A stretch of DNA of 64,000 nt. Origin: Daejeonella sp. JGW-45. Its GTDB lineage: Bacteria; Bacteroidota; Bacteroidia; Sphingobacteriales; Sphingobacteriaceae. The notes under the pieces were generated by a model. The model saw only the letters and a list, made by a program, of their open reading frames with translations, had not been told where the DNA came from and did not search any database. Location of the stretch: positions 1-64,000 of the forward strand of contig NZ_JARKNC010000010.1 in NCBI RefSeq assembly GCF_029360805.1, in the 5' to 3' direction. Both the position numbers and the translations under genes were made by a program. Of the stretch, positions 49,333-58,840 are shown piece after piece. The number at the start of each line of letters is the position of its first letter. Positions within the stretch are counted from its first letter, which is position 1.

Positions 49333-49433
49333 TTCATTGAATGAACTAAGGTTCCTGAAAAAATAATGCCAAACAGATCTTCGTGCATGTCACGTTAACA
49401 ATTCTTATATTTATTATCCTTAATATATTAAGC

Positions 49434-51092
49434 ATGACCAATAAGCTTCAAACAATTTTGCATATCGGACTGGTAATAGCAACTGTAGTTTCCTCCTGTA
49501 CAAATAGGAGTGGCGATCAGGAGACGGGCAAGGACAGCCTGCAGACATATGTCGCAGAGCGGCTTCCTATCTATGCTAAGGTGACGCTGACGACAGACAT
49601 TCAAAAGCTCACAGATAACCAGCGGCAAGTATTGCCGCTTCTCATCCGGGCGGCAGAGGTGATGGATGAGCTTTTCTGGCAACAAGCCTATCCGGCTCGG
49701 GATAGTTTGATGGAAACCATCAATGATGAAAAAACCAAAGAATTCGTTCTGATAAACTATGGTCCCTGGGACCGGCTTAACGGCAATAAACCTTTTGTTA
49801 ACGGAGTCGGCGCAAAACCGGCAGGTTCGGGCTTCTATCCCCCGGACATGTCCAAGAAAGAGTTTGAGAGTTCAGACGTAAAAGATAAAATGGGTTTATA
49901 TTCTATGGTAAGAAGGGATACGGCCGGCAAGCTCTATTCGGTACCTTATCATGTTTATTTTAAAGATAAGCTTAAAAAGGCGTCCGACTTGCTTAAGAGG
50001 GCGTCAGAACTTTCTGATGAGCCCCAGTTAAAAAAGTATCTGAGTCTGCGAGCGGAAGCCCTTGTTACCGACAATTATACCGCAAGTGACTATGCGTGGA
50101 TGGATATGAAGGAGAATGGTCTTGATATCATCATAGGCCCGATAGAGAATTATGAAGATGCTTTGTTCAATGCCCGGGCAGCATTCGAAAGTTATGTGCT
50201 TGTCAAGGATAAGGAATGGAGCAAGCGATTGGAGAAGTACGTATCAATGATGCCTGAACTCCAAAGAGGCCTGCCCGTAGACGCCAAATATAAAAATGAA
50301 ACCCCCGGCGCCGAATCCCAGCTCGCGGCGTTTGACGTGGTTTATTATGCCGGCGATGGAAATTCCGGAGGTAAAACCATTGCCGTCAATCTTCCCAACG
50401 ATGAAGAGATCCAGCAGAAAAAAGGTACGCGCAGGTCGCAGTTAAAGAATGCTATGAGAGCAAAGTTCGACAAGATCATGATTCCTATCGGCGAAGAATT
50501 GATAGATAAGGAACAGCAGAAGTACCTGAACTTTGATGCTTTCTTTACAAATGTAATGTTTCACGAAGTAGCTCACGGCCTGGGAATAAAATCGACTGTA
50601 AACGGTAAGGGTTATGTAAGGGAAGCGCTTCAGGAACAATCTTCATGGCTTGAAGAAGGAAAGGCCGACATTCTGGGGCTTTACATGGTAACCAGTATTC
50701 TTAAAAAGGGAGAGCTGGAGGGTGACATTAAAGATTATTATACCACATTTATGGCCGGTATTCTGCGTTCCGTGCGATTTGGTGCCAGCGCTTCCCATGG
50801 GAAAGCGAATATGCTATGCTTCAATTTCTTTAATGAAAATGGTGCATTTGAAAGAACCCCCGGGGGACGCTACAAGGTGAACTACGAAAAATTCGCTGTG
50901 GCCATGAACAGCCTTAGTAATAAGATATTAACCCTTCAGGGAAATGGTGATAAGGCGGGCGTTGAAAAGGTGCAGAATGAGATGGCCATTATTCATCCTG
51001 AATTAAAATCTGACCTCGATCGCCTGAGTAAAAAGGGCATACCAGTGGACGTTATTTTTGAACAGGGCATTGACGTCCTTAGGCTTAAGTAA
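49434..51092 (+). CDS. M49-like (dipeptidyl-peptidase III family) zinc hydrolase, lipoprotein
   Basis: The protein is a lipoprotein (LVIATVVSSCTNRSG) of about 552 residues. The metal site reads FHEVAHGLG with a downstream EEGKADILGLYMV. Classical DPP III uses HExxxH (HELLGH); this one has plain HExxH, about residue 394 of the open frame. The overall arrangement (helix, then EEGKAD ligand about 50 residues later) still fits M49. Peptide hydrolysis in the periplasm is likely. The frame opens at 49383; ATG 49434 begins the signal peptide. Confidence 0.82.
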   Translation: MTNKLQTILHIGLVIATVVSSCTNRSGDQETGKDSLQTYVAERLPIYAKVTLTTDIQKLTDNQRQVLPLLIRAAEVMDELFWQQAYPARDSLMETINDEKTKEFVLINYGPWDRLNGNKPFVNGVGAKPAGSGFYPPDMSKKEFESSDVKDKMGLYSMVRRDTAGKLYSVPYHVYFKDKLKKASDLLKRASELSDEPQLKKYLSLRAEALVTDNYTASDYAWMDMKENGLDIIIGPIENYEDALFNARAAFESYVLVKDKEWSKRLEKYVSMMPELQRGLPVDAKYKNETPGAESQLAAFDVVYYAGDGNSGGKTIAVNLPNDEEIQQKKGTRRSQLKNAMRAKFDKIMIPIGEELIDKEQQKYLNFDAFFTNVMFHEVAHGLGIKSTVNGKGYVREALQEQSSWLEEGKADILGLYMVTSILKKGELEGDIKDYYTTFMAGILRSVRFGASASHGKANMLCFNFFNENGAFERTPGGRYKVNYEKFAVAMNSLSNKILTLQGNGDKAGVEKVQNEMAIIHPELKSDLDRLSKKGIPVDVIFEQGIDVLRLK

Positions 51093-51120
51093 GCTTTTAA
51101 CCGATTATTTTAAAAGAGAA

Positions 51121-51522
51121 TTAAACAGCATTTACTAAACTAGACACAATTTCTTTTGAAATTGGTTTTCCGTAAAATTTGCGAATGCAGGGATGGTTTT
51201 CCAGCCGGTTCTTATCGCTCTCGTTGATCGACGAGCTGAACATAAAAATGGCATAGTTTGATCTGATATCTTCGGGAAGGAGTTCAAATGCCTCCACAAA
51301 CTGAAAGCCGTTCATAACCGGCATCTGAATGTCCAAAACAATAATCGTCATCGCGTCTGCAGGACCGGGAGCCGAATTTTTTATATGTTCGTATGCGTCT
51401 GTAGCCTGGGTGTAAGTTTTAATGCTTGAATAAGTTCCTGTATTCTGAATAATTTTCTCTCCGATAAAACAATCCAGCTGGCTGTCGTCGATAATGATAA
51501 AGTGGGGAAACGGAGCTGACAT
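51121..51522 (-). CDS. single-domain response regulator at the end of the signalling operon
   Basis: A 133-residue receiver (FIIIDDSQLD; phosphoacceptor in IIVLDIQMPVMNGFQFVEAF; Ser in MFSSS; Lys in YGKPIS). No output domain, so it acts by phosphotransfer or protein contact. It begins one base after the hybrid gene ends and is the last gene of the five-gene minus-strand run 57999-51121. It resembles the receiver at 27532. Confidence 0.92.
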   Translation of the reverse strand: MSAPFPHFIIIDDSQLDCFIGEKIIQNTGTYSSIKTYTQATDAYEHIKNSAPGPADAMTIIVLDIQMPVMNGFQFVEAFELLPEDIRSNYAIFMFSSSINESDKNRLENHPCIRKFYGKPISKEIVSSLVNAV

Positions 51523-51523
51523 T

Positions 51524-52615
51524 TCACTTGTTTTGAATAGTAACTTTAAAACTTGTACCCTTATTTATTTCTGAATCTACAGTTATTTTCCCATTCAGCT
51601 TCGTTACTGCTGCCTTAACATTGTATAACCCGAACCCCGAGCCAACTTCCTGTGAACTCGCACGGAAGAACATATTAAAAATATCCCCTACGTAATTTTT
51701 ATCAATACCGACCCCGTTATCGGTTATTTCTATTACAGCCTTCCCGTTTTCTACCAGTATCTTAAGCTCCACGAGCTTCTCCTTATTATCCCTTTTCTGG
51801 TACTTGAAAGCATTCGATAACAAATTGTTAAGGATCAGCTTAATTGAAACCTCATCGCCCCGGAATGTTTCTTTCTGCTCAATACTTGGTTTGAACTCCA
51901 CATCACTTACCAGGTAAGTAAAGTTAAATATTCTGGTCTGCTCTTTGACGATTTCATTGAAATCAATTTCTTTGATTTCAAGTTCACCGCGGTTCAGATT
52001 ATAATAATCATGAACGCTCTTAATGAAATCATCTAGATTACGCACCGAATCTTTCATCATCAAAAGCATTTTCCTTATTTCGGAGATGTCTTCTATATGC
52101 TGTGCGGCTTCGATAGCACCCAAAATACTGAGAAGCGGACCGCGCATATCATGTGTAACGCTGTATGAGAATTTGTCAAGCTCGTTGTAGGCTTTTTGTA
52201 ATTCCTCATTTTTTACTGCGAGCAGCGAATTGGATACATAGAATTTATTGGCCTCATTAATAGCGCCAAGTATATCTGCATCTTTCCACGGCTTTTTTAC
52301 ATACCTGAATACATTCCCCAGGTTTATAGAATCGATCACGGATTCTATATCGGCGTAACCGGTCAGCAGAATACGGATAGGTTTAGGATAACGGCTGCGG
52401 ATCTCCTCGAAAAACTGTACCCCGGTTTTGCCTGGCATCCTCTGATCGCAGAAAATAACACGGATGTCCGGGTGCGAATTCAGGTGTTCCATCGCATCTG
52501 TCGCGTTCACAGCGATCATAATATTATAGCTCATCCTGAACGAAGCCTTAAACCCGGTCAGGTTGTTTATCTCGTCATCAACATATAATATTTTTATTTT
52601 TTCTTGTTTCTCCAT
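51524..52615 (-). CDS. receiver-histidine kinase hybrid
   Basis: Residues 1-120 are an N-terminal receiver (ILYVDDEINN; phosphoacceptor Asp57 in IFCDQRMPG; LLTGYAD; VKKPW). A coiled-coil linker follows, then a HisKA region (FSYSVTHDMRGPLLS with His155) and a HATPase domain (N-box LNNLLSNAFKYQ, G1 ITDNGVGIDKNYV, G2 GSGFGLYNVK). There is no membrane segment, so it is a cytosolic relay kinase taking input through its receiver. It starts immediately after the 7TM kinase gene stop. Confidence 0.94.
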   Translation of the reverse strand: MEKQEKIKILYVDDEINNLTGFKASFRMSYNIMIAVNATDAMEHLNSHPDIRVIFCDQRMPGKTGVQFFEEIRSRYPKPIRILLTGYADIESVIDSINLGNVFRYVKKPWKDADILGAINEANKFYVSNSLLAVKNEELQKAYNELDKFSYSVTHDMRGPLLSILGAIEAAQHIEDISEIRKMLLMMKDSVRNLDDFIKSVHDYYNLNRGELEIKEIDFNEIVKEQTRIFNFTYLVSDVEFKPSIEQKETFRGDEVSIKLILNNLLSNAFKYQKRDNKEKLVELKILVENGKAVIEITDNGVGIDKNYVGDIFNMFFRASSQEVGSGFGLYNVKAAVTKLNGKITVDSEINKGTSFKVTIQNK

Positions 52616-54766
52616 TTACATCTCTTCTTCAACATTTTCATGAACTATTGGTAATTCCAGAATAAACTCTGAACCTTCACCCGGCGTACTGTTAATTTGA
52701 ATTTCACCCTGATGCCTCCTGATTGTATTGTAAGCAATTGACATTCCAAGACCGGTACCCTCTCCTACATCTTTAGTGGTGAAGAAGGGCTCAAATATCT
52801 TCTTCTTTGTAGCTTCATCCATTCCAATACCGTTATCCTCTATTTTGACATATACTTTCGTGTCACTATTGCTCGTCGTTATTCTCAGCACTCCGCCCTC
52901 CTCATCGCCAAATTTCTTATTTATTGCATAAATTCCATTCGACAGAATGTTCAGGAATACCTGGTTGAGTTTCCCGGGGTAGCATTCGATGAGGGGGATA
53001 TCCGCGTATATTTTCTCCAGTCTGATCTTGTTACTTAATAAATTATTAATGACAATAAGAGTCGAGTCTAATCCATCATTCAGGTCTGCTTTTTTAAGAT
53101 CGTCTTCATCCAGGCGCGAGAATACACGGAGACCCTTAACTATTTCGGACGTTCGCGAAGCTCCCTCCTTGATACCTTTTAAGAGCTGGTTAATTTCTAT
53201 TTTGAGATAGTCATAATCCAGTTCTTCTTTTTGCTCTTCGATCAGCCTTTGTTTCTCTTCAACAGGGAGATCTGAAAGGCCTATTTTTTCCATTTCCTGG
53301 ATAAAATCAATAAGAATATCTACATCCCGGTTAAGCGGAGTAATGTTCGAGGTTACAAAATTGATGGGGTTGTTTATCTCATGGGCAATACCTGCTGTCA
53401 GCTGGCCGAGAGATGCCATCTTCTCTGCTTCCACAAGCTGACCTTCCGCTTCCTTCAGATCGATAAGCGTTTGATTAAGCTCATTGTTTGCTTCGCTTAA
53501 TTCAAGGGTACGTTCATTAACTTTGGTTTCAAGTATTACATTTTGTTCCCGGATAATGCGTTCATTTTCTTTAAGAGCCTGTAAGGTTTGTTCCTGCGAG
53601 CGCTCCTTATCTCTTTTAAACGTATTTATCTTGTCGGCCAGCGCGAAGGCGAGTAAAACAACGTCGAGTGCAGTACCCAGTTCTTTCGTGTAGTTGGTGA
53701 AATCGTTATATGGTACAACCCCCAAATTTCGAAGGACAAAAAGCAGCAGGCCGGTAAAGAACAGCGAGAATGCAAGCAGGAACAGTTTCGCGGGCCGGTA
53801 ACCCTCCAGCGATAGCGTGATAGTCACCGTAAAAGTGACCAATACGGTAGAAACTGCCGCAAAATCTATTGCCCGGAAGCTAACCCTGTCATAACCCAGA
53901 AGTCTGAGAACTATGGCTGCAGAATATATCAGGATTGACAGGTAAATAAAACGATGCATCCTCGGAGAATTCTCCCTGGTCTGGAGGAAATTCATCATGA
54001 AGAGGTTGCCTGCAATGCCCGCGAGACCCGGAAATACTATAATGCCGAGATGATTAAGACCCGGATAATCGAACAGAATAAAGCGGTAGGTATAGCCGCT
54101 TAAGGTAATAGAACTGAGCCCGATAAATAAACTGTAAAAGACATAGTACAGGTAGCTCTTATCCTTCACAGAAAAATATATGAACGAATTATATATGATC
54201 ATTACCAGGATCAGACCCATAAAAAGCCCCCACGCCAGGTCGTTGGTGAGGAGGTTCTCGGCTGTAGTTTTCGGCGTGCCCAGGATTAGTGGCAGCACCA
54301 TCTGTTCGGAACTTCTAACCCGCAGAAAATAAGCTTCAGTGGTGCCTGGTCTTATGTACACATCAAAAAGAAAATTTTGATGCTTGTATTTTCGGTTTGC
54401 GAATTCGGTATCGTAGCTTAATTTCTGTACCAGCCCATCGTTCATCGCATAAAACTCGCAGGTGCTCAGCATAGGATATTCCAGTGCCAGGATAAGGTGT
54501 TCCTGCTCACTTTCATTCCTTATCGAGAATTTAAGCCAGAAATCCGAACTGCTTAGTTTTAGGTTGGGTATGCTTACGCCCTGGTCCACAAAGCTATCTG
54601 AGCTGCGAATATCATTAAGGGTCAATTTATTCGTGGGATCTTCCAGAATGGAAACGTGATCTCCGATAACAATATTTCCACCTTTAAAGACTACGGGTTC
54701 TTGTGCAAATATATCAGCCGAAAAAAATATAGGCAGTAAAAAGACTATAAACCAATACCTATTCAT
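52616..54766 (-). CDS. 7TM-DISM sensor histidine kinase
   Basis: The 716-residue kinase has a signal peptide, a 7TMR-DISMED2 extracellular sensor domain (about residues 30-165), seven membrane helices (about 175-385), a coiled coil, and a kinase core with His462 in [18 protein letters not shown]. The ATPase part has [19 protein letters not shown] and [17 protein letters not shown]2 domains are beta-sandwich, carbohydrate-binding-like modules, so a small extracytoplasmic ligand is expected. Its gene lies 49 bases after the ThiF-nitroreductase gene with no visible terminator between. Confidence 0.94.
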
Positions 54767-54815
54767 TTCTAACAGCTTCGGTCATTATGAGTGGTTCCAA
54801 TTTCCCTGTAATTTA

Positions 54816-57158
54816 TCAAATCTCACCGTCGAATACCAAAATATCTTCAAGTGCCAGGCGGTGGGCTTTCAGCACTGGTTCTTCAGCAATAGCTATTTTT
54901 GCCAGAAACACCTCGGCATCATTGTTTCCCGAACCGGTGATCTTATTAAACCGTTCCCGCAACATGCTTAGTTCCCGGATATTTGCTTCTTCCAGGCCTT
55001 CTCCATTTCCATGTAAAATACGTGAGAAAAGATAGAGAGGCGAAATCAGCGGATGAATGGCAAGATTAAGGTTTGTTGCCTCCAGCCAGAACCTTTCCAT
55101 GGAACGGCCCCCTTCAAAAAAGTTTTTAAGGCTATATCCCGGAAGGCTTATCAGGCAGAGTGCCGAAGCAGTCGAAACCGTTCTCATGGCAAGCATGCCC
55201 AAAGCATTTCCCCCGCCAAGCTCCTTAACTGCATTTATCACTTTCTCGCTCCGGATAACCCCCATTGCCGCCATCAGGGAATGGCCAAGGCCGAGAGTCT
55301 GAATGTCGATGCCATCGCGGGTGCGTTCAGCCTCTTCATTGGTCCAGCGCATCTCACGATGCACAAAATCATAATGCCCTTCCGGGTTGAGGAGCCGTAT
55401 CTTATCGCAGGCGCCGATGATCATCGCAAGGCTCCGAAGATCTGCCTCGTCAGTAAAATACTTAAGCTGAACACCGGGTATGGATTCAGCCATCACCTTC
55501 AGCCGTGATAACAGGTCTTCCCCGACAGATGATTTGGGCGCAAGCAACCGGTTGGTATGCCTTCTGAATATGGCACTGTCAAGTGGTTTTACAAGATCAG
55601 TTTCCCGCTTCGGCTGAAGTGCTCTAAAGCGGATAGCAGCAACGACCTTTTCTGTGGAGCTGTCCGGGAAAAGAGCGTAGTATGGTTCCAGCCCAAGATT
55701 TAAGGCATGGATGCTCAGGTTTTCATAGGCCGCTCCTAAACTTATGAATGATGCGGTTTTTTGGAAGTCGCCAAAGGAAAATGACCTGAATTCATCATGG
55801 AAAAGATATAATACACCATTTTTATAGAACCATTTCCACGGCTGGTCATTACCTGTTGAGGGAGCCGCTGATGCCGCTGAAACCAATTGCTTAATGGTTT
55901 CGTTATCCGGGATGATATCGTCCGGCAAGGTTTCAAGTTTTACTCCGGCACTCAGGCTCTTCATATCTTCTTTCCAAAGCGGCGCAAAAGGGTTGTGTTT
56001 CGTGTGAACCTTTTCATCCGTTTGTTTTTTGTCTGATATGAGTTCATCCAGGTCTATATAATATCTTCCTGATTCGTGAAACTGATCGAGCAGTATGCGC
56101 CGGCAAACATCAGCTCCTAATGCCCCTCCAAGAACGACAGAACTCGCCAGCTGCGGCCATGTGTTTATGGTTTGTTCCACTTCCAGCATGGACGCCTTTG
56201 CCCTCAGGGAGATGTTCTCTATCCCCAGCATTTGCAGCATTACAGGTATCTTATCCTCTGTGCTGAGGCCTCTGATTGTTTTAGGATCTACATTGTCGAT
56301 TGTTCCGTGAAGCAAGGGACGATCAGGCTCCAGATCAAAGCGCTCTACGTCAAGCATTCCGCGGTCGCTGGTATCCATCAGTACCGGGATGCCAAGATCC
56401 CTTGCCTTGAAACGGGAAATGATCTTAATATCGAGGCTGTCGCATTCGTCTACAAGGAGATCAATTTTTCCATTGCCGGTGAAAAAATCATCCATATTTT
56501 CTTCAGTGAGCCCGTCGAAATAACAAATAACGTGTAAGAAGGGATCTATTTCAGCAATTTCGCGTGCGGTTATCACCACTTTGGGAATGCCGAGGTTATG
56601 AACACCCGAACGGATCCGGTTGAGATTGCTTAATTCCAGCGTGTCAAAGTCGGTTAGACGAAGCTCCCCAAACCCTCTTTCCATCGCCAGGGTAAGTGCA
56701 ACAGACTGCCCGACCGAAAGTCCGATAATGCCAATGATCTTAGTGGCCAGTTCGTCTTGCTCCTTTTTGGTTATCTTATACTGGTTACGGTTGCTTCGGA
56801 CCTGGATAAATTCTTGTTTATCAAGCATGTGGACCAGGCGCCTGCTCCAGGGATAATAAACCCATACACCGTATGAATCAATATCTTTCCCCCCCAGGTG
56901 GCTGTTTATCAGATCCGCGTAATCAGTTTCTTTAATTTTAACAGCCGGACTTTTCATTTTAATCAGCTCGCGCAGCTGGCCATGAATTTCATCATGGGCA
57001 AATACAACATCGCCTGACGCCAGCAGCCCGTCAAGGGCGCTCCGGTCAGAGGGATTATCCAGCCTGAAAAATGTAGGGCGATAGGTTAGTTGTATTTGTC
57101 TGGATGCATCTGAAAGTGCATTGATCCTGGCTTTCATAGTAGGTGATTTTAATAGCAA
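54816..57158 (-). CDS. ThiF-nitroreductase fusion (Rv1355c-like family)
   Basis: The 780-residue protein joins two enzymes. A leading region of about 130 residues precedes an E1/ThiF-type adenylating domain: IGIIGLSVGQSVALTLAMERG (GxxGxxxG), LTDFDTLELSNLNRI and the nearby Lys (LGIPKV). Zinc CxxC pairs of many E1-like proteins are absent. From about residue 415 a nitroreductase-type FMN domain follows (VSAASAAPSTGNDQPWKWF; RRHTNRLLAP; AMRTVSTASALCLISLPG). I recall this architecture as the Rv1355c family. It follows the acyltransferase-like gene by 31 bases. Activation plus redox chemistry on a small molecule is the likely role; the substrate is unknown. Confidence 0.85.
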   Translation of the reverse strand: MLLKSPTMKARINALSDASRQIQLTYRPTFFRLDNPSDRSALDGLLASGDVVFAHDEIHGQLRELIKMKSPAVKIKETDYADLINSHLGGKDIDSYGVWVYYPWSRRLVHMLDKQEFIQVRSNRNQYKITKKEQDELATKIIGIIGLSVGQSVALTLAMERGFGELRLTDFDTLELSNLNRIRSGVHNLGIPKVVITAREIAEIDPFLHVICYFDGLTEENMDDFFTGNGKIDLLVDECDSLDIKIISRFKARDLGIPVLMDTSDRGMLDVERFDLEPDRPLLHGTIDNVDPKTIRGLSTEDKIPVMLQMLGIENISLRAKASMLEVEQTINTWPQLASSVVLGGALGADVCRRILLDQFHESGRYYIDLDELISDKKQTDEKVHTKHNPFAPLWKEDMKSLSAGVKLETLPDDIIPDNETIKQLVSAASAAPSTGNDQPWKWFYKNGVLYLFHDEFRSFSFGDFQKTASFISLGAAYENLSIHALNLGLEPYYALFPDSSTEKVVAAIRFRALQPKRETDLVKPLDSAIFRRHTNRLLAPKSSVGEDLLSRLKVMAESIPGVQLKYFTDEADLRSLAMIIGACDKIRLLNPEGHYDFVHREMRWTNEEAERTRDGIDIQTLGLGHSLMAAMGVIRSEKVINAVKELGGGNALGMLAMRTVSTASALCLISLPGYSLKNFFEGGRSMERFWLEATNLNLAIHPLISPLYLFSRILHGNGEGLEEANIRELSMLRERFNKITGSGNNDAEVFLAKIAIAEEPVLKAHRLALEDILVFDGEI

Positions 57159-57189
57159 AAGCTATCGTACATTAAATATTCTGTCTTAC

Positions 57190-57999
57190 CTACAGCAAAT
57201 TTAGATTACTTTCATCAATACTGCCGGTTGATTTTCCTTTCGTCGTATTGGCAATTGTAGCCTGAAGATCCCATTTATCCATATTTGGGATTTCGATATC
57301 GTAGTGTATTTCTATTTTTTTCCTGCGGAGCTCCTCTATCCTGACCCCCTGCAGATTTTCCCGGAGCGACATGATAGCAGCTTTATTCTCCGCATCAGCC
57401 GCGCTAAGGTCCTTCAGATCGCGGAGAATAAGTACGGTTGCCAGCAGGTCTAGCTTGGGATAATAGAACGTGCCATTATTTCCGATCCCTTCCTCAATTT
57501 CATAGCCCACGCTTTGCGCCATCTTTACGGTGTAGGGGGCGCAAAGACCAAACAGTGAATCCAGTCCTATCTGTGTCGACATGGCCACTCCAACACGGGT
57601 TAAAAAGATACTGCCTATACCATAGCCGGCAATCTCCCGCGAATTCCACAAACCGCAGCCCTCTCCGGTACCTTTCTGGGCGTAATCCCATACCATATCG
57701 TAAATAGCAGGATCTAAAGCGCCCGTGGCCTGCTCAATTGGCAGCGGTTCTGTTCCGCCCGCCACGTGGATACGTGCGCCTCCGTAAATGTGCTCTTTGT
57801 CAAGCGACTCTACAATCATGACAAACGCTGCGGGGTTATTAACCCATTCGTTATTAGAAGAGGTTACCTTTTCTACGCCTATGCTTGTCAGCACCCGCTT
57901 ATGCCCTTCCACAAATAATTCACACGACCGCGGGTCGTCAATGGCCCTGAATGCCCTTAAACGCACAACAGGGTTGCCATTATTAAATTGTATCTCCAT
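57190..57999 (-). CDS. GNAT-fold N-acyltransferase-like protein (autoinducer-synthase-like)
   Basis: The 269-residue protein has no signal peptide. Its middle reads like the acyl-donor part of GNAT or acyl-homoserine-lactone synthase folds: YGGARIHVAGG, an NSREIAGYGIGSIFLTRVGVAM helix region, then GLDSLFGLCAPYTVKMAQSVGYEI. This resembles LuxI/FeeM-type N-acyl amino acid synthases more than short-chain GNATs, but my assignment rests on pattern alone. A charged C-terminal extension of about 75 residues follows (LRRKKIEIHYDIEIPNMDKW). It is the first gene of the five-gene operon and faces the divergent receiver at 58140. Confidence 0.65.
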   Translation of the reverse strand: MEIQFNNGNPVVRLRAFRAIDDPRSCELFVEGHKRVLTSIGVEKVTSSNNEWVNNPAAFVMIVESLDKEHIYGGARIHVAGGTEPLPIEQATGALDPAIYDMVWDYAQKGTGEGCGLWNSREIAGYGIGSIFLTRVGVAMSTQIGLDSLFGLCAPYTVKMAQSVGYEIEEGIGNNGTFYYPKLDLLATVLILRDLKDLSAADAENKAAIMSLRENLQGVRIEELRRKKIEIHYDIEIPNMDKWDLQATIANTTKGKSTGSIDESNLNLL

Positions 58000-58120
58000 T
58001 TATATACTATATCCCGCCTTGTCTTGCTGAATATATTTTACTATCATTAGATAAGATTTATAAGAATTGTTTCAGCCAGTAATTTAGGGGATAATTAGTA
58101 TCTTTTTTATTAATTATCCT

Positions 58121-58128
58121 TATTTTTG
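58121..58128 (+). promoter_or_regulatory. -7 box TATTTTTG for the receiver gene at 58140
   Basis: An exact TAnnTTTG lies 11 bases before the ATG at 58140, in the 140-base region between divergent genes. No clear -33 TTTG and no obvious minus-strand box were found. Confidence 0.5.
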
Positions 58129-58139
58129 CTAAAATATTA

Positions 58140-58616
58140 ATGTTACAACAAATGTCTGATAAAAAGATTGATATCCTGTATGTCGATGATGAAGAAAATA
58201 ATCTGATATCATTCAAGGCTACTTTCAGACTTAAATATAATATTATGATCGCGGTCAGTGCTGATGCCGCTATGAAAATATTGGAAACAAAGCCCGTTGA
58301 GATCATAATCACTGATCAGCGCATGCCTAATATGACCGGCATTGAATTCCTTGAAAAGGTTATTGAAAAATATCCAGATCCTGTACGAATTCTTCTGACC
58401 GGTTATGCCGACATGAACGCCGTTATTGATGCTGTTAACAAAGGTAAGATTTATCACTATCTAAGCAAGCCGTGGAGCGAACAGGAGCTTGAGGAAACTA
58501 TTCAAAAAGCGTTTGAAGCCTATCAGGCGAGCAGGGAAGTTAAAGAAATGAATAGTAAGCTCGCCGTGTCTAATGATCAGCTTGAGTTTTTGCTAAGGCA
58601 GAAGCTGCTTTCATGA
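58140..58616 (+). CDS. response regulator paralogous to the hybrid receiver
   Basis: The 158-residue protein is a receiver (ILYVDDEENN; phosphoacceptor Asp59 in IITDQRMPN; LLTGYAD; LSKPW) followed by a short coiled coil (KEMNSKLAVSNDQLEFLLRQK). It is closely similar to residues 1-140 of the hybrid at 51524 (both have DQRMP, ILLTGYAD, KPW and the same linker), but stops where the kinase part would start. ATG 58140 and 58152 are both usable. It diverges from the biosynthesis operon and may report on or modulate the same relay. Confidence 0.92.
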   Translation: MLQQMSDKKIDILYVDDEENNLISFKATFRLKYNIMIAVSADAAMKILETKPVEIIITDQRMPNMTGIEFLEKVIEKYPDPVRILLTGYADMNAVIDAVNKGKIYHYLSKPWSEQELEETIQKAFEAYQASREVKEMNSKLAVSNDQLEFLLRQKLLS

Positions 58617-58618
58617 TA

Positions 58619-58770
58619 CGGGAAGCGAGAGACGAGAAGCGAGTTTCTTTCCAACGTACCTTCTGAGATTCTCATAGATCCAATCATTTTTCATTTAATC
58701 GTTCTTCTACTGGTATAGAAACAATCAGTCTCGGCCTCATCGTTCGTTTCTCGCATCTCGTTTCTCGTCC
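58619..58770. repeat. inverted copies of a GAGAnACGAG repeat
   Basis: GAGAGACGAGAAGCGAG (about 58626-58642) and, on the opposite strand, GAGAAACGAGATGCGAG (58743-58770 region) match at 15 of 17 positions and face each other across about 100 bases. A third copy lies at 59400-59426. The pair looks like a REP-type or miniature repeat following the receiver stop codon. The enclosed 100 bases hold no gene I can support. Confidence 0.7.
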
Positions 58771-58840
58771 CAGTTAATTACACTTTCCCGAAACCAAATC
58801 CGGAATCGAGCTGTTTTCAAATCAAACAACATCAACGATT

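Follow-up and report, generated by a model that had tools for sequence, protein, structure and literature searches.

Does a cell that carries this locus make a modified, acylated amino acid and also sense it? The locus lies in the window, by which we mean the whole 64,000-nucleotide stretch analysed (positions 1 to 64,000 of contig NZ_JARKNC010000010.1 of Daejeonella sp. JGW-45). Five minus-strand open reading frames (ORFs; 57999-57190, 57158-54816, 54766-52616, 52615-51524 and 51522-51121) follow each other there with successive gaps of 31, 49, 0 and 1 bases. They encode a putative N-acyl-amino-acid synthase (TrzA), a fusion of a ThiF enzyme with a flavin-dependent oxidase (TrzS type), a histidine kinase with a seven-transmembrane (7TM) sensor half of the 7TMR-DISM kind, a soluble protein joining a receiver to a histidine kinase (REC-HK), and a single-domain receiver (REC). 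An earlier description of the locus (the sequence-only reading) had given these coordinates and gaps, with a further receiver gene diverging from position 58140, and all were confirmed on an ORF check.

The comparison of related genomes very probably reveals an autoinducer-kinase system, which places known enzymes in a setting that is new, modular and conserved. We consider it likely that we are dealing with a self-contained autoinducer module, one in which the capping enzyme is swapped along with the sensor.

Linkage of the enzymes and the kinase

A TrzA profile matched 13 of 395 genomes from the phylum, in five family codes, and 151 of the 301 genomes of the window's own family, in 21 of 25 genera. 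The surroundings of TrzA were fetched for 112 of the 159 matching genomes, the window's excluded; the other 47 comprised 34 of a single genus (code g2), skipped in view of its already good coverage, and the last 13 on the list. A 7TMR-DISM kinase stands beside TrzA on the same strand in 111 of these 112 loci, the lone miss being a locus cut off by a contig edge 223 bases downstream. REC-HK was called in 104 loci, an opposite-strand receiver in 106, and a same-strand REC of 120-200 aa, anywhere in the fetched stretch, in 73 (43+17+13). Five of the eight loci without a called REC-HK are at contig ends (L068, L110, L157, L175 and L188) and three are not (L159, L176 and L177). Besides the tailoring enzyme, no further neighbour recurs in more than 10 of the 112 loci, and neither does any regulator other than the receivers, recurrent clusters being judged by size and by the start of one sequence each.

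The fusion enzyme gives the same picture. A search of 296 genomes for the TrzS family found 10 genomes besides the window's at 146 bits or more, all with adjoining TrzA and kinase genes; the next matches, at 111 bits or less, span one half of the family only. The set is present in 11 of 12 named loci, the exception being a Thiobacillus locus (L043, 25% identity). REC-HK was also sought in 16 relatives that lack TrzA: 13 yield nothing at E <= 1e-30, in two the match is confined to the kinase portion of a longer protein, and a full-length orthologue is present in one (G523, about 210 contigs). The linkage is kept across five family codes and differing flanks. Because of these linkage counts and the joint presence of the parts, the joint enzyme-kinase system is real in Bacteroidota. 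The sequence-only reading was to fall if the enzymes were usually found apart from the kinases, and in this phylum that is not what we see.

Variation of the capping enzyme

The gene beside TrzA is not constant. Among the 112 loci, 55 carry a ThiF-oxidase, 33 a ThiF protein alone and 24 neither, these labels being assigned from hidden Markov model (HMM) matches and the ORF found in the gap. Of the 24 loci without ThiF, 21 have a class I S-adenosylmethionine (SAM) methyltransferase, two an ICMT-like carboxyl methyltransferase and one an FAD-binding oxidase. Pfam searches covered L117, L122, L070 and L186 only; all 21 methyltransferases match the L122 protein (E <= 2.1e-52) and bear a GCGxGxD-type motif, and L071 was labelled ICMT-like through its alignment with L070. 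Plausibly, every one of these capping enzymes except the FAD oxidase would modify the carboxylate of the N-acyl amino acid, giving a methyl ester or an oxazolone.

The ThiF proteins without an oxidase domain (L061, L067, L069 and 30 more) would yield a saturated oxazolone, and we know of no described system for such a product. The FAD-binding oxidase (L186:5401-7011, minus strand) is a 536-aa FAD_binding_4 protein in the slot usually held by ThiF or the methyltransferase. L195 has its ThiF-oxidase split over two open frames and, between TrzA and ThiF, one additional small receiver.

The sensor half follows the capping enzyme

Trees were built for the 103 loci with all parts (L137, with its kinase in two frames, and the eight loci without a called REC-HK were dropped). 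On FastTree trees enzyme type must change at least 8 times on the sensor-half tree, against 26 on that of the kinase core, 21 for TrzA and 24 for REC-HK, and maximum-likelihood trees give 7, 27, 20 and 24 respectively. Changes between methyltransferase and ThiF alone are sharper still: one for the sensor half and 11 each for core, TrzA and REC-HK with FastTree; 1, 11, 10 and 11, in the order sensor, core, TrzA and REC-HK, by maximum likelihood. All 20 methyltransferase sensors form one branch that holds no other type, with a support of 100 in the Shimodaira-Hasegawa-like approximate likelihood ratio test (SH-aLRT). An approximately unbiased (AU) test rejects a single methyltransferase clade for the core (p 2.5e-46) and for REC-HK (p 1.7e-6), with 20 versus 80 rows.

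The boundary between the two histories falls within one gene. Sliding windows of 110 residues along the kinase need 6-13 changes as far as residue 430, 16 at residues 361-470 and 25-30 beyond, against about 44 with shuffled enzyme labels, which places the break between sensor and core histories near residues 400-440. A single pair illustrates the point: L130 (ThiF) and L121 (methyltransferase) are 84% identical in TrzA, 80% in the core and 80% in REC-HK, and 27% in the sensor. Given the core, the correlation of enzyme and sensor distances is 0.52 among the 80 ThiF loci and 0.81 among the 20 methyltransferase loci. The 7TM bundle, with 215 of 707 columns, contains 41 of the 60 kinase positions most informative of the enzyme, a count uncorrected for phylogeny. 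This pattern is what matched signal-receptor cassettes should look like.

Proposed mechanism

We envisage the following sequence of events. From its fold and family, TrzA would couple an acyl group to an amino acid. The ThiF part of the TrzS-type fusion, as shown for homologues, would use ATP to cyclise the N-acyl amino acid to an oxazolone, which the flavin oxidase part, again by analogy with homologues, would desaturate with O2. The carboxylate would thus be capped and the product neutral and lipophilic. It would reach the membrane or other cells, where the 7TMR-DISM sensor half of the neighbouring kinase may bind it, as co-segregation of the two suggests. The kinase would then act through REC-HK and the two output-less receivers on a regulator encoded elsewhere, as the Phc proteins do on PhcA. 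Across Bacteroidota the capping enzyme (for oxazolone, saturated oxazolone or methyl ester) would be swapped together with the sensor half, and TrzA, the kinase core and REC-HK would stay.

Carried further, this suggests a widespread kinase-based quorum sensing in Bacteroidota, with a TrzA acyl-amino-acid core, interchangeable caps (unsaturated oxazolone, oxazolone or methyl ester), and an exchangeable cassette of capping enzyme and sensor half that would define a private chemical dialect. We lean towards this broader picture, if only slightly.

Evidence against the proposal and alternative explanations

Several observations weigh against a matched signal and receptor. Tryptazolones were more abundant inside cells and are acid-labile (PMC12856293), which disfavours an extracellular signal. 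REC-HK was not called in L159, L176 and L177, although 6.9-7.1 kb is available downstream; linked genes for an exporter or a transcription factor recur in 10 of the 112 loci at most; and none of the five loci viewed outside Bacteroidota (L043-L047) has such a kinase beside the enzymes. Sensors serving the same enzyme type diverge to an identity of 0.26-0.27 where core identity is 0.75-0.85, and in ThiF loci a partial correlation of 0.41 between enzyme and core persists given the sensor. The 39 loci in which TrzA stands between ThiF and the kinase show no contrast: changes between oxidase and none number 4 for the sensor, 5 for the core, 4 for TrzA and 5 for REC-HK, versus 3, 8, 6 and 5 in the other 41 ThiF loci. 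The pairing signal therefore stems from loci in which enzyme and sensor adjoin, and in such loci the block between conserved TrzA and core DNA could be exchanged without selection. Unselected exchange of this kind, between conserved flanks, would yield part of the pattern.

The product might instead be a membrane or stress lipid and no signal; the kinase would then serve homeostasis, sensing the membrane's state (or an intermediate) and regulating the operon or the envelope in response to what the lipid does to the membrane. The enrichment of tryptazolones in cells and not in the medium fits this, as does the link of oxazolones to stress (PMC12856293), and the enzyme-informative positions are concentrated in the 7TM bundle, where a membrane lipid would act. 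However, the types of enzyme and sensor match class by class, and a general membrane sensor need not track the cap; we consider this explanation unlikely.

A second alternative is that the genes travel together merely as one transcriptional unit in a recombining island, the match of enzyme and sensor being hitch-hiking between conserved flanks. The enzyme does adjoin the sensor half in 21 of 21 methyltransferase loci, TrzA and the kinase core are sufficiently conserved to act as arms for recombination, and the ThiF-TrzA-kinase loci lack contrast as described. Yet the linkage persists through five family codes and changes of flanking sequence, one sensor branch corresponds to 20 of 20 methyltransferase loci and to nothing else, and the breaks fall inside a gene, so that hitch-hiking seems to us a rather improbable account of the whole. 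A third possibility, which we rate as very improbable, is an acyl amino acid with antimicrobial or toxic action, its production timed by a kinase that responds to competitors or to export from the cell itself: N-acyl tyrosine derivatives of Stieleria are said to be antimicrobial (PMC12856293), but genes for export, immunity or resistance are not seen among the recurrent neighbours.

Returning to the autoinducer module, its interest is twofold. To our knowledge, little is known of the ligands of 7TMR-DISM receptors. The physiological role of N-acyl oxazolones is, according to their investigators, a major unresolved question (PMC12856293). A conserved operon that holds a synthase beside a candidate receptor, in matched variants, makes both questions directly testable. 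If the proposal is true, oxazolone lipids are signals and 7TMR-DISM domains their receptors; a family of kinase-based small-molecule signalling is added to a phylum with few described; and a new form of chemical communication has been assembled from known parts.

Enzymes and signalling proteins of the window

The features of the locus are collected in Table 1.

Table 1. Features of the module in the window.
Feature	Position	Strand	Remarks
Putative TrzA-type N-acyl-amino-acid synthase	57190..57999	-	269 aa
TrzS/OxzB-type fusion of ThiF cyclase and flavin-dependent oxidase	54816..57158	-	780 aa; NCBIfam NF005901
ThiF (adenylating/cyclising) domain core	56379..56777	-	residues 128-260; PF00899 62 bits
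Acg-like flavin oxidase domain	54837..55919	-	residues ~414-774; match to 2ymv Acg
Histidine kinase, sensor half (signal region, 7TMR-DISMED2, 7TM bundle)	53477..54766	-	residues 1 to ~430
Kinase core, HisKA + HATPase	52616..53449	-	residues ~440-716
REC-HK, soluble receiver + histidine kinase	51524..52615	-	363 aa
Single-domain receiver	51121..51522	-	133 aa; PF00072 35.3 bits
Divergent receiver with conserved C-terminal tail	58140..58616	+	155-158 aa; probable start 58152

For the acyltransferase, no Pfam or NCBIfam family scores above its cut-off (there is one chance-level Pfam match, E 0.075), and in hhalign comparisons it matched none of four actinobacterial proteins encoded next to ThiF or joined to it (lowest E 0.0064, probability 5.9). 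Its structural model has the FeeM/LuxI variant of the GNAT fold, and from fold and family we infer an N-acyl-amino-acid synthase of the TrzA/TyzA type. The fusion protein is easier to place: NF005901 (the Rv1355c family) scores it at 816.6 bits against a cut-off of 476, with residues 20-774 on profile positions 5-718 of 722, and it aligns end to end with two actinobacterial members. Its ThiF ECDS Asp240 is conserved in 9 of 9 aligned sequences and appears to correspond to Asp217 of Mycobacterium smegmatis TrzS. For two further residues of that protein the window offers candidate columns whose numbering is not tied to it, namely Lys586 and Arg588 for Arg540 of the flavin mononucleotide (FMN) site and His702, as in the Rhodococcus plasmid locus L044, for Gln651. 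The nitroreductase-type domain is divergent, reaching 22.3 bits with PF00881, just below the cut-off of 23.5; it matches 2ymv Acg (E 2.3e-8 over 418-705) and reaches 124.7 bits with the Acg family NF047509, below the cut-off of 199. Since the enzymes appear to be an N-acyl-amino-acid synthase and an Rv1355c-family ThiF-oxidase, their likely product is an N-acyl oxazolone. Novel enzyme chemistry was considered and rejected, the pair falling within the OxzAB/TyzACB/TrzAS N-acyl-oxazolone pathway (PMC12856293, PMC10404671).

In the 7TM kinase, the sensor half matches PF07696 (100.6 bits) and PF07695 (151.9 bits), and the core PF02518 (78.7 bits) and, below the cut-off of 26.9, PF00512 (22.6 bits); we found two proteins with the 7TM domain in the genome of the window. 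REC-HK matches PF00072 (57.6 bits) and PF02518 (79.1 bits), and Pfam found no DNA-binding domain in it and none over cut-off in the operon proteins. The divergent receiver matches PF00072 (71.1 bits) and ends, past its REC domain, in LEFLLRQKLLS (58578-58616), where R153, Q154, L156 and S158 are invariant in 20 of 20 sequences. It probably starts at 58152 (Met5, invariant in all 20 aligned sequences), and the ThiF-oxidase gene may start at ATG 57137 instead of TTG 57158.

The sequence-only reading had named a ThiF-nitroreductase fusion, an acyltransferase of GNAT/LuxI-like fold, a 7TM-DISM kinase, a hybrid relay protein and receivers, and these calls hold. Its 'complete phosphorelay', however, is unsupported because the domain search found neither a histidine phosphotransfer (HPt) domain nor an output domain in the four signalling proteins, and a multistep relay (HK-REC-HPt-REC) was likewise rejected for want of an HPt or effector output domain. 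Its central idea, that a modified acylated amino acid is made and sensed through the 7TM kinase, is well supported within Bacteroidota by the near-universal linkage and by the way the sensor tracks the enzyme, but the relay it invoked is incomplete. The absence of a terminator between the genes was borne out as well, no terminator-like site being found on the minus strand in 50900-58800; six matches all lie on the plus strand, a count not above that of shuffled sequence. Scans for consensus promoters gave results not clearly above those for shuffled sequence.

Comparison with known systems

The enzymes have been described before, in Actinobacteria and Proteobacteria: TrzAS of Mycobacterium and Rhodococcus and OxzAB of Pseudoalteromonas are the same pair, an acyltransferase of FeeM/LuxI fold and a ThiF-flavin-oxidase fusion. 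For these no sensor kinase is described (the term 'histidine kinase' does not occur in the main text of either of the two Journal of Biological Chemistry papers), whereas in the Bacteroidota loci the kinase set accompanies the enzymes almost without exception. The sequence-only reading knew of no described system with this set of genes; the enzyme pair proves to be known (PMC12856293, PMC10404671), and the whole set was not found in the literature searched. No paper joining the TrzA-TrzS pair to a 7TM kinase was found there, subscription papers and preprints lying outside the search, so that its absence is unproven. Clusters of Stieleria and related organisms are described as holding genes for ThiF, a nitroreductase and an N-acyl amino acid synthase (PMC12479983).

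The organization of the module recalls Phc quorum sensing. There, phcBSRQ of Ralstonia and relatives is an operon of a signal-capping enzyme, a sensor kinase, a soluble REC-HK lacking a DNA-binding domain and a REC with a C-terminal extension (PMC8578825, PMC6989110). The locus studied here likewise has a soluble REC-HK without a DNA-binding domain and a single REC with a C-terminal extension. PhcB is a SAM methyltransferase, the kind of enzyme found in 21 of the 112 Bacteroidota loci, whereas the window has a ThiF-oxidase instead, and the Bacteroidota module adds the acylation of an amino acid by TrzA. The C-terminal part of PhcQ has a conserved Arg154, and the divergent receiver of the window also has a conserved tail. 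A REC-HK search of 200 genomes around a Thiobacillus genome, run without a positive control, gave nothing at E <= 1e-30. A receiver-profile search matched 97 of 200 genomes, in many kinds of REC protein, and identified no Phc locus. By tblastn against plasmids, REC-HK showed 23.5-27.2% identity among the matches listed (30 of 216 records).

In the polymorphic quorum-sensing loci agr and comQXPA a signal-processing gene and the sensor half of a kinase co-vary and the kinase core is conserved. Those are peptide signals of Firmicutes, whereas the signals here are probably lipid-like small molecules of Bacteroidota. In the N-acyl-cyclolysine (ACL) system the ACLs are reportedly sensed by a transcription factor, AclR; the present module differs in having a 7TM kinase and no DNA-binding domain over cut-off in the operon proteins. 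That system (Linares-Otoya et al., Nature 2025) likewise concerns signalling in Bacteroidota via an acylated, cyclised amino acid. ACLs are also mentioned in PMC13419125.

Loci outside Bacteroidota and neighbouring genes

L044-L047 are actinobacterial plasmid loci, in one of which (L046) sensor and regulator genes lie about 5 kb away. The actinobacterial TrzS proteins used for comparison are 33-35% identical to the window's over most of their length. On Streptomyces plasmids, ThiF proteins (L046:7929-9727 and L047:7164-10078) are 47-48% identical to the ThiF part of the window's enzyme; their genes adjoin one for a GNAT protein or a beta-ketoacyl-acyl carrier protein synthase, and the ThiF protein of L047 carries an additional region at its N-terminus. 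On a Rhodococcus plasmid (L044:4940-9142) a single hypothetical gene separates a GGDEF gene from the Rv1355c-family gene, an arrangement that recalls the Mycobacterium tuberculosis locus of this family, adjoined by cyclic-di-GMP genes (PMC12856293). The TrzA profile, applied without a positive control, had no match in 185 genomes of the class of Thiobacillus.

Within the window, a gene for an M49-family peptidase (49383-51092) faces the 3' end of the module. Related genes occupy the same place in L032-L036, and the cluster of ORFs related to this peptidase stands beside the module in only 6 of the 112 loci.

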